Assembly (NCBI GenBank): GCA_025677815.1
Contig: JAIXMP010000023.1
Location: forward strand, 124,001 to 188,000
Reading direction: 5' to 3'
Source: Phascolomyces articulosus
Lineage: Eukaryota; Mucoromycota; Mucoromycetes; Mucorales; Lichtheimiaceae
DNA: 64,000 nucleotides
Notes under the pieces: generated by a model
The model's database searches: none
Told to the model about the DNA's origin: nothing
The model's input: the letters and a program-made list of their open reading frames with translations, nothing else
Program-made: the position numbers and the translations under genes
Part shown: positions 12,963-19,815 of the stretch, one piece after another
How the letters are laid out: each line of letters begins with the position of its first letter
Numbering within the stretch: the first letter of the stretch is position 1

Positions 12963-13057
12963 TCATAGTTTATAGCTTGTGCACATAGTGTGATGGAATA
13001 AAAATATCACAAAGTGTATACATGAAATCTTTTTTAATTTATCTGCTGATTGATCAG

Positions 13058-13083
13058 TCTCTCTCTCTCTCTCTCTCTCTCTC
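13058..13083. repeat. (CT)n microsatellite
   Basis: Uninterrupted CT dinucleotide run of about 13 units. Confidence 0.95.
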
Positions 13084-13345
13084 CCTCTTTATCCATAGTG
13101 ATTGATAATTATTAATAAGAAAAGCTTAGCATTATTTTCATGTATATCACTTGTTGCAGTATGTATTACAATGTCAATGCTTTTGTTACTTTTTATGAAA
13201 AACTGTGTAGTTACATATCATAACGAAAAATACTTTTAGTTTTTTTGTTTTATTGAATTACTATTAAAAGATCTGACTTTGAAAATGAATAAACAAGAAA
13301 AAGAAAGCTTACATTTTAGTACATTCACATCGTCTGAGTGGCACA

Positions 13346-16300
13346 TCAGTGATCCTGAGCAGTAATACTGTTTGTTAGTAGTACGGAAGTATTACATATT
13401 ATACATCCAAAAAAAAAGGAGAGAATATATTGTACCTTGTTTGGAGTTGATGTTGAATTATGATAATTGTTGACAAGGTAGTTCTTGTTTTGATCAGTTG
13501 GTGTTGTTTGGCGTCGATATGGCGGGAGAGGCTGTGAATCATTAGCTATCATAGCAGAAATGCATCGGATCATAATATTTTTAGCACCAAGTGAGTCGCA
13601 GTTCATGGTATTCATATGGAAAAGTTTTGAAGGGCTCTTGGGGTTCTGACAGATTTTGGCATCATTTACTTTGACTATTCGACCACTCTGTTTATAAATA
13701 TGACAAGCAACACGTTTATAGCAATAAGGGCAAATTGTGGATGTGAGGTATTCGTCACATTCTTCAAGGTGATCATTTTCTACTGCGTTCATCGCTTTCT
13801 TTCACTTTTTTGAACCATGTCTACTATATCCACGAATTGGGGAATTTCTTAAACATAGAGATAGAAATTAATATACTTGATATAAATATCCCAATTTGTT
13901 CTTCACGATTAAGAAATTCAAAACAACCACTTACGAAGAACCCAGTTTCCGAAACAGTGCACAATCTTTGTATTTGAAGTACCATTCGTGATGCTCCTTC
14001 GAATTTTGGTAGCCACTCGCCAATAAGCCTTGGCATCTCTAACTCCCCGAGTTTTCGCATCCGTATTCAACCGCTCTTTTGTAGTCTGCTTGTTTCTGCA
14101 CACATTCCTATTTCGTTTTTTTTCTGTGCTTGGCCGATAAGATTATGTTATCCATATGCTTGGCCGTATTTTTAATAGAATGTTAGATTGGTTCAAAACT
14201 TGTTTCTCTGATGTCCATTTGAATGTCCATATGTCTTCATCATCCTTGTTTTTGTCATCCAATCCATATAAAACGGTGTACTGATTTATCGAAGCTAACA
14301 CAGAGGAACCCGAACTTCCAACAGAACTACTCGTAACAACCATGCCTGGATCCGATCCAGAATCAAAAAACTTTCTTGTCATTCAGATAGACACCTTCAA
14401 AGTCCACCTATAAATAGCAAATTGCGATCAATGTTGAGAAATTATGTCATAAAGATACGATATAATAAAATAATAATATTTTACCACTTTTCTCTTCGGT
14501 AAGGGTCTGGATTCTGAAGCTTTAAGATATTCTTTAATCGTATCCAACTTTTTCCACTCCCCATCTACTTCCTTTCGAATGGTGGTAAGGTTATGTATCG
14601 TCTCTTGAAGTAATGGATTGGAAGTCGGCGTTCGTGAGGTTGATGCATTTTTCTTCATTATTCGTAATGTTGCTGAAGTTTCCATTCTTTTCTTGGATGA
14701 AGTAGCCAGTGTTTTGGTATCCATAGTTTGTCTTGTTTGTAGGTCGTTTAAGTCGTTGTAAGATCTTTAATTTCTTTTTTTTAAGTCGTCACTGTCAATA
14801 GATGGAATATCATCATCTGAAACAGACGTACAAGTTCCTCTTGGGTGCATCTTTATTCTTGACCCAAGCCATCTCATTCTCCAATTATCCACATATAATA
14901 AACTGAATTCAAACTGGAGTTTCCTCTTGTTAAGAATGGAAATAATGCTGTTGGTGCTAAAAAAAGATGACATGGTCTCTACTCCTTTATCATTCGCCTC
15001 CACATGACTTATGGGCTGATCGTCATCTCCATATAGTGTATATCTATCCCCTAGCAAATCATATACAGATACCACAGAAATAGGAAGTGCTAATTTGGAT
15101 GTGTCTGCTACATGTTTGTTTTTCCAGTTACATTGCAGTCAACACTTTCTCGGTAATTGTTGCCAGAGGCGTTAATAAAAAAGGAGAAAAGTTTGACGAA
15201 TGGAATAATAATCATTGTAGAAAATTAAACTCAAAAAAATCTAAACTCCTAACCGAAAAACATGAATTCGTGTTTTTTTAGTGTGGAACCTCGCGAAATT
15301 GGCCCTGAATTTAGCTGGGAGTTTACCTAAATTCGTGTTTTTATGAACATATTTGAGAATACCTTTTTCTACAGTGAATGTTGGCGATACTGGCGGCTAC
15401 ATTTGCTTCTTTGTCTGAGAACTTTGTTGACGAGTAAGTTCTTTTTTTAATATATGCGCCAGTGATAAGATGGTCGATTTTTGGAGATTTCCAAAGCATC
15501 CTTATGATCGATAGTAAGGCTTTAATTCTCGACATTGGGGTTTCTTGCGAGGCAGTTTGCTTCGTTTCAGTTTCCAAGACATCTGTTTGGTCATGGATCA
15601 AATCTTAAACCTCCGGATTTTCTTTATTATCGTCATATAGATCTTCATCTAATTCATCATCAGCAGCAGATTCTTGTTGTTGCTCCTCTTGTTCGTCATT
15701 ACGTTCTTGTAAATTATCTTCGTATTGACCAAGGATGTTTAAAAGATGTGGGATGCCTTGACGACATTGTTGATTTGTAGATAAAAGACGATAACAGATA
15801 TCATCACACAAAGTCTTAAACATTCCCCACCATTTCCGATCTGAAAAAGATCTTCTGGTGGTGTTGTTGACATTCCAGTCATCCTTTTTCTGCCAAGGCT
15901 TGTTGCAATAGTCAATATAACGCTGAAATTTGGTGGAGCGTAAATGGGCCTCGAGTAACAATACAATAAGTTTTTTCAGGTCATGGTCCAGAATTTTTTC
16001 ACTCCACATGTTCCATACTGCCATATGAAGATTGGTTAAAGCATTGGCAAATGTTTATCGGCTTTTGAAAGGATCCGAAATGCGATCTGGACAGTTGGCA
16101 ATTATTCTTTGCATTATTGTCTTTAACCGACTTTCAATATATAAGATTACATATATAAAAGTTAGATGCAAGAAGAAAAAAGAGAATCTTATATCAACAA
16201 ATGGTATTTATACTTACGGATTATCCTCTTTCTCCCCATGTTCTCCTAAATACGCTGTAGCTATTCTTGATAGATGAGTGAATGACAAGAGTTTGTCCCT

Positions 16301-18065
16301 CTCGAACTCTTTTATCGAATCATCATGTAGTATCTATACTTGAAATGTTTCATCCTTGTCTTGAAGGAATTCTTCCGGTACGATAATTGATAAAGACATT
16401 TTCTTTATATCTTTGTTTTTATATATGCTCGCCACCCTTACATTTGAAAGCTAATTTAATAAACAACAATAAGTAAGTCTGTCATTATTACTATCACGAT
16501 AACCACATCCGGTAAAAAAAAAGTACCATTTCAATAAACATGTTACCTGCTTTGGTTAGATCTTGCATTTTGTTTGAAAGACACGTTTGTTCTTAATTAA
16601 AAATACGTGAGACATCATCTTGATCAATACCGTTTCTTAAGGCATAATGGAGGGATGTTGTGACTATGCGGTACTCTTTGAATGGTAATTCTTTCTTTTA
16701 TTTTCCCATGGTTTCTTTGACATACTATTGAATTAAAAAAAAAAGATGAGTGCCAGGCTTTTAAAATATTCACACATCCATGATGGTCTTGTTTATTTTC
16801 ATTGATTATATTTATACCTCCAAAAAGTATTCATCATTAACATCTATGTCTTCATAGTCAGAGCCATCTCCATTATCGGAACCATTATCCCCAATTTGAA
16901 GATCCTCATTGTCTCCATCATCAAGTAGTGACACTAGTTGTTGGTCCTTCAAATCCTATTAGTATTAGAAACATACCGTCGTTAGCTATATATATAAAGA
17001 AAAAATATTTATACGTACCTCCAACAAATACATGTCATGTTCATCAATGAAATATAAGGGTGTGTCATCATCTATGTAAACTTGTGTGGGAGTCAGCTCT
17101 AACAATCGATCAAGTTCTTGCTCCCATTCTTCACCAAATTTGACGCCTTTGAACTTATTACTCACTCGAGTGTAAGTCCCTGCTCGATCAAATAACGGTT
17201 CCCCGTAGTTGGCATGCATATCTTGAGCAAAATCGTTCCAAAACCGTTCTGGTAGCCTGGGTTTCATCTTCTCTCGTTTTCTTCGTAATTCATCAATGGA
17301 TATAAAACCGGACAAGATGTTTTTGCTATAATATTCTTGAACCGAAGCAGTACTATAAATAACAACACAGAAACCAATTCATTAATTTCATTTCATAGTA
17401 GTTGTATATGAAAATCAAAAAAAAAGTTCCAATATATTATAACTTACATATGTTTATCCACAATATCTCGTAACACTTCGGTAGAGATTTGGTAAGATGA
17501 ACTCCGTGCTCTTCTGGGCTTAACTCCTCTTCTTGTCGTTTTTCTGCAACACATATAGCTGGCTCAGGGATGGCTTGTGGCGATGCGGATGGTACAAATT
17601 CTTTATCGCTCACTTATAACGGAATCCATGATCCGTACCCATCAAAACTGTCAATGGCATGAAGAATACAGATTGTATCACTGGCATTGGGTGTGTTGAC
17701 CACAAGAGGCTTCTTTCGTGAAGAAGAAACATAAAACCAAGGCGAGTAAACCTTTAAATAGGCCGTACATTGAGGTTAGAGAGGTGTAAAAAAACTGGTG
17801 TTTTTTTTTTTCAAAGACAATCGTATTTTAATATTTGACAGAGTTGGAAGCAGAGAGTGCTTTGGCTTTCATCCCTTTCTAGACAGCGTTGCTTTAGCCA
17901 CGTCAAACTCTTCAGGATAGATTCTTGAGCAATGGGTTTGTTGTCCGCTTCACGAAATGCGTAATCAATCTCTTTCCTGGTCATGGGCCTTTGGTATGAA
18001 ACAAGCACGTTGTTGCCCTGATATTTGGTTTGGTGGTAATTTAGTGGTGATGAAAGTGTGAACAC
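13346..18065 (-). pseudogene. Decayed Fanzor/TnpB-like RuvC nuclease ORF of a mobile element
   Basis: An intron-containing minus-strand gene relic, read from 18065 down to 13346. The N-terminal part (18065-15605) is of unknown fold and includes RPRRARSSSYQISTEVLRDI, a long exon with LPERFWNDFAQDMHANYGEP, and an acidic stretch. The C-terminal part carries the nuclease core. The RuvC-I motif is GSDPGMVVTSSS (14382-14330). A basic helix with WRVATKIRRSI and CFGNW follows near 14000-13925. RuvC-II plus half a zinc ribbon reads DEYLTSTICPYC (13770-13730). The RuvC-III-like motif is MNCDSLGAKNIM (about 13610-13570). This order matches TnpB/Fanzor proteins, RNA-guided DNA nucleases in IS200/IS605-like and eukaryotic elements. 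Decay is clear. Seven in-frame stops lie at 17614, 16593, 16334, 16055, 15605, 14767 and 14143. Frameshifts occur near 17525, 15105, 14370 and 13810. The second zinc CxxC is lost (CQNPKS), and NRD has become NCD. The element is surely inactive; family assignment is by motif recall. Confidence 0.65.
15256..15343. repeat. Palindrome plus direct repeat, probable TE terminus or footprint
   Basis: Positions 15256-15277 (AAAAACATGAATTCGTGTTT and two more T) form a near-perfect palindrome around GAATTC. The right half recurs as AATTCGTGTTTTTA at 15330-15343. The 50 bp between, GTGTGGAACCTCGCGAAATT onward, is unlike the surrounding coding relic and interrupts it between its NIHCRKRYSQ and NASGNNYRE segments. 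It resembles a solo terminal repeat of a DNA transposon; the identity is inferred. Confidence 0.4.
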
Positions 18066-19815
18066 AATATGTGTTGCTTGTAAGATAGATAATAATTTAT
18101 GATATGATAATTGAGTGTAAACACCAAAATGTGTTAATCAGTTACATATATTTAATGATATTGAGTAACAGGGCTTTTGGTGAGCAACACGATGTTACTA
18201 ATAAGATTTGCTTCTTATAATTACAATTCTTATAGCAACTAAAGTTTTTATATATCAGTTCGTGATATTTAGTGAGCACCAGTAATATTAACGTATATTA
18301 CACCGATTAAAGCAACAGATATCAATACTAATGTTTTAAGCAAGTATCTGTTTATATGTGATTATACAGCTATATTAGCGTGGATTCTTTAGGCCACAGT
18401 AAAATATATAATACGAATAATATATGATATATAATTGAATTATCGTTTGAAGTATAAAAATTGTATAACAAGTGAAGCTTGGATTAGCAGTTCTTGTTAT
18501 TACAAAAGAGTAACTTGTGTAGTATGTTACTATATGATATAATCCTTGATATAATGTCTTGAATTCAATGATAATAGTCAAAGTCAGGTATGTTACTTCC
18601 GACTGGTAATGATAATAGAATAAGGATCAGGAATGTTACGTCTGTCCTATATTGAAATGTTAAGCTTTTTTTAAGCTACAGTAAAATTAAAACAAGCCAG
18701 TTCGGTCTTGAGTGAATCAATACTCTTAAAATTTATGTATATGATAAAGAGAAGTATAATTGATTGATTTTATTTCAGTTACAAAATTGTGGGGTATTTA
18801 TATGTTTTCCAATAATTAAATATTTCTATCCTAAGTAACAACATGTGAAGATACTGCGGTTGCTACGAGATACTGTGGTAATAAATGAATATCCAATAAT
18901 AATATAATGTGTTGAATAAGTGATAATTATATTTATAAATATGTTGCTGCGGTTTGTATGTATCTCTTGTTAATTGGAAGATACCAAAAGGTAAGATAAT
19001 CCGATATTGTCGCAGTAACAGTATTTATATATAGAGTTGTTTCGTAGTAATAATGGTAATAACTGCGGTTCTTTCTGGGGGGTTACAACGTAAATAATCC
19101 CAATATTTGTTTGGAAGTATGATATCGAATTTACATTCATTCAGTTGGAGATCTATACATTGGAAAAGAGGAATATTAATTCATTAACCTTTTATTTTTT
19201 TATTATAAAAATTCGCTTTTGTTTTAGCCATTCGTACATTGAGCACTTGATTCCACAAATTCTTCGGATGAATCATCAGGAAATACAGGTTCTATATCCA
19301 TAGGTTGAACGTCACTCATGGCGAAAAACAAAGTCGTGTCAAAAACAAGATCGTGTCAAAAAGAGAAGAATAATAATCAGGTCGTTCCCCCTTTTTGTCA
19401 GATTCTGCATAAAAATCATGTCACCATTTTTTCAACAACAGACGGGATTCCGCATTTGAAAAAATATGTGGTAGATCCTTTTCAGTTTTCTTCGTTTTGT
19501 TTCATAATAGTTAATAGTTTGTTAAAGAAGTTCTTTTGTGGCTTTAAATTATACTTCTTGGATATATCACTATGTTTTCGTTTTACTGTCATTTATGTAA
19601 AACACCTTCTTTTCTATATTGCTTATATTAATATGCTTCAGATGGATCGATTTTATTATCCAAATAAAAACAATGTTCATTAGCAGTAAAATTATTACAT
19701 TAGTTTATTTCGAGAATATTGATATATAAGAAGACAATCTCAATAAGATATTTATGGAACGAAGGAAAGATCATGTTATTATATACAAAGAGTTAATTAC
19801 AAATTTTATATTTCT
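18066..19815. other. AT-rich spacer with a possible 31-codon relic
   Basis: Between the Fanzor-like relic and the BRCT relic. Scattered imperfect copies of TACTGCGGTT-like and ACAGTAA-like words occur at 18640-19080, but no regular period. On the minus strand, 19319-19224 gives MSDVQPMDIEPVFPDDSSEE and continues briefly to a stop. This acidic start may be an exon of a lost gene upstream of the Fanzor-like ORF. The plus frame at 19318-19683 covers it and has poor composition. A short direct repeat (TCGTGTCAAAAA) occurs at 19334-19361. Confidence 0.4.

Follow-up and report, generated by a model that had tools for sequence, protein, structure and literature searches.

The 64,000-nucleotide stretch of the Phascolomyces articulosus genome considered here, hereafter the window, very probably contains an inactivated copy of a mobile element encoding a Fanzor-type, TnpB-like RuvC nuclease. 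As predicted from the sequence, the protein carries a zinc finger between RuvC-II and RuvC-III and a long extra region ahead of the nuclease core, and its intact counterparts would be guided by RNA. Its remnant lies on the minus strand within 13317-18006. The genome examined comprises 47.4 Mb in 110 contigs, and the host belongs to the Lichtheimiaceae, Mucorales, in agreement with the mucoralean lineage proposed in an earlier annotation made from the letters alone (the first-pass annotation). Other copies in this genome are designated by handles such as C33, and related proteins as P0001 to P0007.

Catalytic motifs and reading frames of the window copy

The three RuvC motifs were found on the minus strand in the order given by the first-pass annotation: GSDPGMV (RuvC-I) at 14358-14338, DEYLTSTICPYC (RuvC-II and zinc finger) at 13756-13721, and NCDSLGAKNI (RuvC-III) at 13603-13574. 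The catalytic codons are 14352-14350 for the aspartate of DPG, 13753-13751 for the glutamate, and 13597-13595 for the RuvC-III aspartate. Across all six frames of the 64 kb, E-x6-CxxC occurred once and DPG three times, and 14352 and 13753 formed the only close, ordered pair. The core is made up of the following features, in which P0007 is the hypothetical protein BDA99DRAFT_535621 of P. articulosus (its sequence reads like the C100 copy) and C29 is a sister copy.

13346-13801, minus strand: open stretch encoding the RuvC-II glutamate, zinc finger, and RuvC-III aspartate; an intron is read through near its end, and its stop codon is 13348-13346
14143-14382, minus strand: open stretch that contains RuvC-I (GSDPGMV, aligned with GSDPGLL in P0007) and terminates at an in-frame stop
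13355-13435, minus strand: intron, GT...AG, missing exactly from the C29 copy
13848-13934, minus strand: intron-like segment between RuvC-I and RuvC-II, GTAAGT...TTTAAG, with uncertain boundaries; C29 lacks approximately 86 nucleotides (nt) here, with ends that are not identical
14408-14484, minus strand: putative intron directly upstream of RuvC-I, GTAAAA...TATAG, from splice signals only; C31 and C33 have an intron at a similar place

A profile of the family (e5), searched against 3,149 open reading frames (ORFs) from the window and five fetched loci, matched 13801-13349 with an E value of 3e-25 and 14382-14146 with an E value of 9.7e-7. Both scores benefit from the inclusion in this profile of P0007, a close copy within the same genome.

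That the ORF bears introns, as annotated earlier, is supported by C29, which lacks exactly 13435-13355, a segment with GT...AG ends. Overall, this sister copy lacks one GT...AG intron exactly and a second intron-like segment nearly exactly, as if it derived from spliced RNA. RuvC-I and RuvC-II of the window copy lie in different frames in genomic DNA, with the intron-like segment at approximately 13934-13848 between them. A frame change between the two motifs was considered and withdrawn, as removing approximately 86 nt as in C29 would restore a single frame. A frameshift is thus unsupported, because the intron-like segment intervenes and C29 lacks these nucleotides.

Assignment to the Fanzors

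The published Fanzor fingerprint consists of DPG and a glutamate six residues before the zinc finger (PMC10711439). DPG was present at RuvC-I in the window copy (14352) and in all seven related proteins (P0001-P0007, two of them from the window's own genome). E-x6-CxxC was present in the window copy (13753) and in five of the seven; of the other two, P0004 stops short of the second Cys and P0006 is divergent at this site. The C4 zinc finger followed by RD is complete in C31, C89, C84, and P0005. Departures comprise Q before D in C26b, which retains the finger, a finger one Cys short in C33, and the absence of the second Cys pair from P0002. The window copy has lost the fourth Cys of the finger (CQNPKS; several relatives have CxxxxC) and has CD for RD, with Cys at the position occupied by Arg in most relatives. 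Finally, the DPG-to-E distance in exon 5 of C33 is 205 residues, within the published D-X(125,275)-[TS][TS] spacing (PMC3627910); in the window copy this spacing is blurred by the uncertain intron in between.

The 13-row family profile, A1, was searched against 177,635 Protein Data Bank (PDB) sequences. The top two matches were SpuFz1 (8gkh, E 3.1e-5) and PpFz1 (9cf0, E 5.8e-4), and the third had an E value of 0.36. In these alignments, DE[YF]-x-[ST]S, CPxC, CxNxxC, and NRD of the family coincided with the same motifs of SpuFz1 and PpFz1, and the PpFz1 match started some 50 residues upstream of the glutamate. The Fanzor/TnpB-like character claimed earlier is thus upheld by both fingerprints together with the best PDB matches of the family profile. 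On sequence grounds, the family is a Fanzor, nearest to Fanzor1 by profile, and is filed without a subgroup because TDG was not found and because e4 was no more similar to a canonical Fanzor-like ORF of the genome than shuffled sequences were.

Several results weigh against this assignment. The A3 profile, built from seven full-length rows, reached SpuFz1 only at E 0.017. The zinc-finger domain PF07282 matched C33, C31, and P0002 with 20.6-25.2 bits, which we counted in favor despite the cut-off of 26.3; no family member scored reached that cut-off, and P0003 and P0004 gave no match. The window pieces alone yielded no accepted Pfam, NCBIfam, or PDB match, and a protein search with the window C-terminus matched none of 109 candidates. 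The TDG motif of the Fanzor1 WED domain was not found upstream of DPG in P0001-P0007, several of which are N-terminally short, as well as in e2, e3, and e4a of C33 and in e3 and e4 of the window. Similarly, a comparison of e4 with the canonical ORF for WED homology scored 14.0, versus a mean of 14.5 and a maximum of 20.7 for shuffles. AlphaFold models were of low confidence, with mean pLDDT (predicted local distance difference test) values of 51.4 and 41.9 from alignments of seven and six sequences, respectively. The RuvC fold is unconfirmed because both of these models are poor. In single-sequence PDB searches, the C33 C-terminus returned only repeat proteins and a ribosomal protein, and P0005 only a ribosomal protein (E 0.21).

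We also considered that the C-terminus might belong to an unrelated zinc-ribbon protein that resembles Fanzors by chance, as would be allowed by two further zinc ribbons that the window piece matched below the Pfam cut-off (17.3 and 15.4 bits). Searches with hidden Markov models did not place it in an unrelated zinc-finger family, a placement that, along with the lack of a RuvC fold, would have spoken against the first-pass annotation. Chance resemblance is very improbable, being contradicted by the match of the family profile to the PDB, by the DPG and E-x6-CxxC fingerprints, and by an hhalign comparison of the family with a canonical Fanzor-like ORF from this genome whose PF07282 match exceeds the cut-off (score 31.9, E 0.0031, probability only 10%), in which the maximum of 50 shuffles was 23.9. 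The genome contains a canonical Fanzor-like ORF of 376 amino acids (L001, G000:C23:1326491-1329715) with PF07282 over the cut-off and TDG 37 residues before DPG.

The extra N-terminal region

Upstream of the core, exon profiles of relatives matched the window collinearly over approximately half of the N-terminal region. The parts of this region are as follows.

15608-16054, minus strand: homology to e3 (E 1.1e-4; 34% over 44 amino acids to C33)
15344-15604, minus strand: homology to e4, first part (E 2.9e-6)
14770-15138, minus strand: homology to e4, second part (E 5.7e-6; 31% over 84 amino acids to C31)
approximately 16055-17988, minus strand: most N-terminal part of the remnant, reading MTRKEIDYAFREADNK... 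from approximately 17986; matched in part, as DNA, by the C23 and C100 copies

The next-best window matches of the e2 and e3 profiles had E values of 0.36 and 0.55. Accordingly, the large extra N-terminal region described by the first-pass annotation was recovered in part: e3 and e4 are collinear over pieces of 16054-14770, and the e1 and e2 profiles of better-preserved relatives had no match in the first 1.9 kb of the window copy (approximately 17989-16055). For e1 this negative is weak because the profile held a C31 row that had been read out of frame.

The gene model of C33 comprises five exons and a predicted 1,415 codons or so, with introns of 88-98 nt bearing GT...AG ends; summing exon lengths places RuvC-I near residue 1,115. 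Upstream of RuvC-I, a lysine-rich linker is accompanied in the relatives by a long helical hairpin, which alone was modeled with confidence in P0005 (residues 111-210, block pLDDT 71-93).

The extra region might be due in part to a neighboring gene in the same element, such that e1-e2, and perhaps part of e3, lie beside a Fanzor of fairly ordinary size encoded by e3-e5. Indeed, the annotated Zychaea proteins P0002 (840 amino acids) and P0003 begin in e3, none of the six homologues found contains e1 or e2, and these two exons have no window match, the e1 profile being partly faulty. Nevertheless, the e1-e2 and e2-e3 gaps of C33 (98 and 91 nt) have GT...AG ends like the other two introns, and the core is preceded by e1 and e2 in L042 and by e2 in L053. 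We therefore regard two genes as rather unlikely and retain a single gene with a long N-terminal extension as the working model.

Boundaries and decay of the window copy

Homology of the window, C26, and C29 copies stops at one base, 13317, after ...TGTACTA and 29 nt past the stop codon. The remnant and the insertions associated with it are given below.

13317-18006, minus strand: remnant of the Fanzor-like mobile element, with its 3' end fixed at 13317 and a solo long terminal repeat (LTR) inserted upstream, on the 5' side
15213-15376, no strand assigned: small repeat element within the gene, with many genome copies; not at this place in the C100 sister copy
18011-19087, no strand assigned: solo LTR, TGTAACCC...GGGCAACA, with ACGT on both flanks; outside the gene

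The 5' limit of 18065 in the first-pass annotation had to be revised. This position falls within the unrelated solo LTR, 18011-18065 being LTR sequence, so the remnant starts at or below 18006. The LTR belongs to a young family: at least 41 matches, including itself, are 90-100% identical (40 of 52 candidates scored).

In-frame stops flank the RuvC-I stretch, immediately precede the RuvC-II stretch, and also occur in the N-terminal region; the small repeat at 15213-15376 interrupts the e4 region. Because of these stops and the insertion inside the gene, the window copy cannot make the Fanzor-like protein. It is the dead copy that it had been taken for.

At the DNA level, the sister copy C29 has 89-95% identity in three pieces. 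C26 is 85% identical, only downstream of 14505, and C100 is 89% identical in three pieces within 16962-14507, with a C-terminus that is 40% identical as protein. C23 is 66% identical over 1.45 kb, mainly at 17283-15900. At 14505-14507, C100-like sequence upstream switches to C26-like sequence downstream; the sister copies may be chimeric.

Relatives in the genome and in other moulds

The C-terminal piece of the window copy matched 31 of 33 listed genome stretches at E ≤ 1e-3, a count that includes the window itself and in which some loci appear twice. The copies of a second lineage (C33, C31, C1, C89, and others) have decayed less than that of the window, with at least one disabling change each in C33 and C31. 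A third Fanzor-like lineage is represented by L051 and L052 (C22 versus C45, 96% identical), with the finger NEHMSSQICVFC...CNNSNC...NRDAVGA and a common end after GTGTACC.

Beyond this genome, a protein search using residues 506-823 of P0001 identified three Zychaea mexicana proteins among 3,377 candidates. Using A1, four matches were obtained among the listed 7,996 sequences scored: two from Zychaea, one from Fennellomyces sp. T-0311, and P0007. One of the two Zychaea proteins was already a row of the A1 profile. The Zychaea protein P0002, 840 amino acids as annotated, could be aligned to C31 over 788 columns (37%). A scan of viral contigs revealed no relative of the family. By sequence, the lineage was found here in Lichtheimiaceae moulds only.

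Element ends and related elements that lack a Fanzor gene

Six copies of the C33 lineage end in GCCTGTATTTTT (ACCTGTATTTTT in C33 itself), with unrelated sequence beyond. The terminal sequence CGCCTGTATTTTT occurs 30 times in the genome, versus twice for the reversed control, and 17 of the 30 sites were inspected. Six are at Fanzor-like loci. Among ten others fetched, nine have the whole end of approximately 90 nt and one has the terminus only; a further site, L073, has approximately 40 nt in common. The nine elements with the 90-nt end belong to a family in which no Fanzor ORF was seen (L092 and L099 were read). The 3' part of this Fanzor-less family was found in at least 24 stretches (40 of 54 candidates scored) and its longer body in at least 20 (40 of 122 scored), the query being included in both counts. 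Most of the latter have a piece of the common left end, approximately 770 bp of which recur with 94% identity upstream of the Fanzor genes of C33 and C1. Thus, some 20 long elements, among them L099 (G000:C21:307000-311000), have both ends as in C33-type Fanzor elements. An initial length of approximately 1.06 kb for the Fanzor-less elements, taken from the C1 copy, was dropped, as other copies are longer (approximately 4.2 kb in C21).

Most Fanzor-less copies read have the termini AGGCGTTTTATA on the left and AGGCGTTTATAA on the right, which form a short inverted repeat; variants occur at the left end in C21 and the right end in C33g. The termini of the C1 Fanzor copy are AGGCCTTCTATA and AGGCGCTTCTAA. 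As both differ from the Fanzor-less termini, the two ends vary in a similar way. No target duplication was seen in seven left-right pairs read by eye. An ORF upstream of the C33 gene that looked reverse-transcriptase-like by eye had no Pfam match at E ≤ 0.01, and no claim is made for it.

A conserved 3' hairpin as candidate guide RNA

Copies of the C33 lineage end in a conserved region of approximately 90 nt that runs from the stop codon to the element end and contains a covarying hairpin. The hairpin was evaluated in an alignment, A5, of 16 rows (seven Fanzor and nine Fanzor-less, 14 distinct), from which L089 (terminus only) and L073 were excluded. Its structure was derived from the Fanzor-less rows and has 14 pairs, with the 5' arm lying over the stop codon; 89.7% of cells are paired, and five pairs have changed on both sides. 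Covariation over the whole structure was 0.202, versus 0.145 ± 0.014 for shuffles, none of 500 of which reached this value, and at most 0.069 when the structure was slid; the shuffles ignore relatedness.

Other measures speak against a conserved RNA. The two-sided pair count of five was reached by 102 of 500 shuffles, and the pair-type count of 13 by all 500. A second hairpin showed no two-sided change, and RNAalifold alone recovered only five apical pairs. For the 3' end of the window copy, folding was no stronger than that of shuffled sequences (z -0.95). The structured RNA that the first-pass annotation had suggested seeking at 13000-13350 was not found for the window lineage, the copies of which share only 29 nt after the stop codon.

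A substantial possibility, albeit one that we lean against, is that the hairpin is a DNA-level transposon end, such as a site bound by a transposase, or a signal for the mRNA 3' end, common to elements mobilized by one transposase. It lies near an end that carries the short inverted repeat AGGCGTTTTATA / AGGCGTTTATAA, and both ends are common to elements that have no Fanzor ORF. In single-sequence folding, moreover, two Fanzor-less rows were significant (z -2.86 and -3.05) and five Fanzor copies were not (z -1.49 to +0.49). Against this explanation, the compensatory changes favor a folded strand. Further, the stop-to-end position and the sharing with Fanzor-less elements match SpuFz1, for which the omega-RNA is reported to run from the stop codon to the element end and to be shared with Fanzor-less ghost loci (PMC10432273). 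We prefer to read the hairpin as a candidate part of a guide RNA.

Proposed mode of action

By analogy with SpuFz1, the intact protein would bind a short RNA transcribed from the 3' end of the element that encodes it. The source of this RNA in the C33 lineage would be the conserved region with the hairpin running over the stop codon, and sequence past the element end would serve as the guide. Cutting of matching DNA would then help the element, and Fanzor-less elements that share its ends, to be retained or to spread. On this basis, we infer that intact members are RNA-guided DNA nucleases directed by the element flank. Judged by analogy, the arrangement in the C33 lineage is the same in kind as that of the S. 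punctatus Fanzor loci.

More tentatively, the Lichtheimiaceae may hold a distinct Fanzor group outside Fanzor1 and Fanzor2, a proposal that we consider possible and somewhat doubtful. Its members would be approximately twice the usual size and lack TDG. They would have the lysine-rich linker and helical hairpin between the N-terminal region and RuvC, as well as a 3' hairpin RNA of their own, and could serve in trans the Fanzor-less elements whose two ends match theirs. Literature searches combining Fanzor with genus names of the Lichtheimiaceae and Syncephalastrum returned no mention of Fanzors among the matches listed, and with mucoralean terms the only mention among the matches listed was in PMC11423790.

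As RNA-guided nucleases of eukaryotes, Fanzors attract interest for genome editing, and what they do in nature is unsettled. A large, divergent fungal lineage with defined ends, a covarying hairpin, and Fanzor-less elements with both ends in common would add a system besides Spizellomyces in which ghost loci and trans action could be studied. New RNA- or DNA-binding parts may also reside in the added N-terminal region.

Comparison with known systems

Fanzor1 has been described in Rhizopus, Phycomyces, and Mucor by Bao and Jurka in 2013, including in the MCi-2 family of Mucor circinelloides (PMC3627910). Compared by description, MCi-2 is likewise mucoralean and multi-copy, and a 6-kb conserved 3' region of it encodes the Fanzor; the same source recognizes no terminal inverted repeats (TIRs) in it and treats its transposase as uncertain. 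MCi-2A and MCi-2D have target duplications of 11-12 bp, in contrast to the absence of duplications in the seven pairs read here and the short inverted repeat at the ends. ROr-4, PBl-3, and MCi-4, of the MuDR type from Rhizopus, Phycomyces, and Mucor, also resemble the present elements, being mucoralean DNA elements that carry Fanzor1 and lack a gene for a MuDR transposase (PMC3627910). They differ in their MuDR-like TIRs and 9-bp duplications, which were not seen here.

The closest comparison is with Fanzor1 itself, as represented by SpuFz1 of Spizellomyces punctatus and PpFz1 of Parasitella parasitica. The new family differs in size: Fanzor1 proteins are mostly 600-700 amino acids (PMC11423790), with some reaching approximately 800 (PMC10711439), whereas the C33 prediction comes to approximately 1,415 codons and places RuvC-I near residue 1,115, and P0002 is annotated at 840 amino acids. 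It also differs in the linker and helical hairpin before RuvC-I, in a C-x4-C second knuckle, and in that TDG was not found. The likeness to Fanzor1 extends over DPG, the glutamate six residues before the finger, and, in some of the relatives, the C4 finger with RD. It also includes a multi-copy element, a conserved stop-to-3'-end region in the C33 lineage, and Fanzor-less elements with the same ends, comparable to the ghost loci of S. punctatus.

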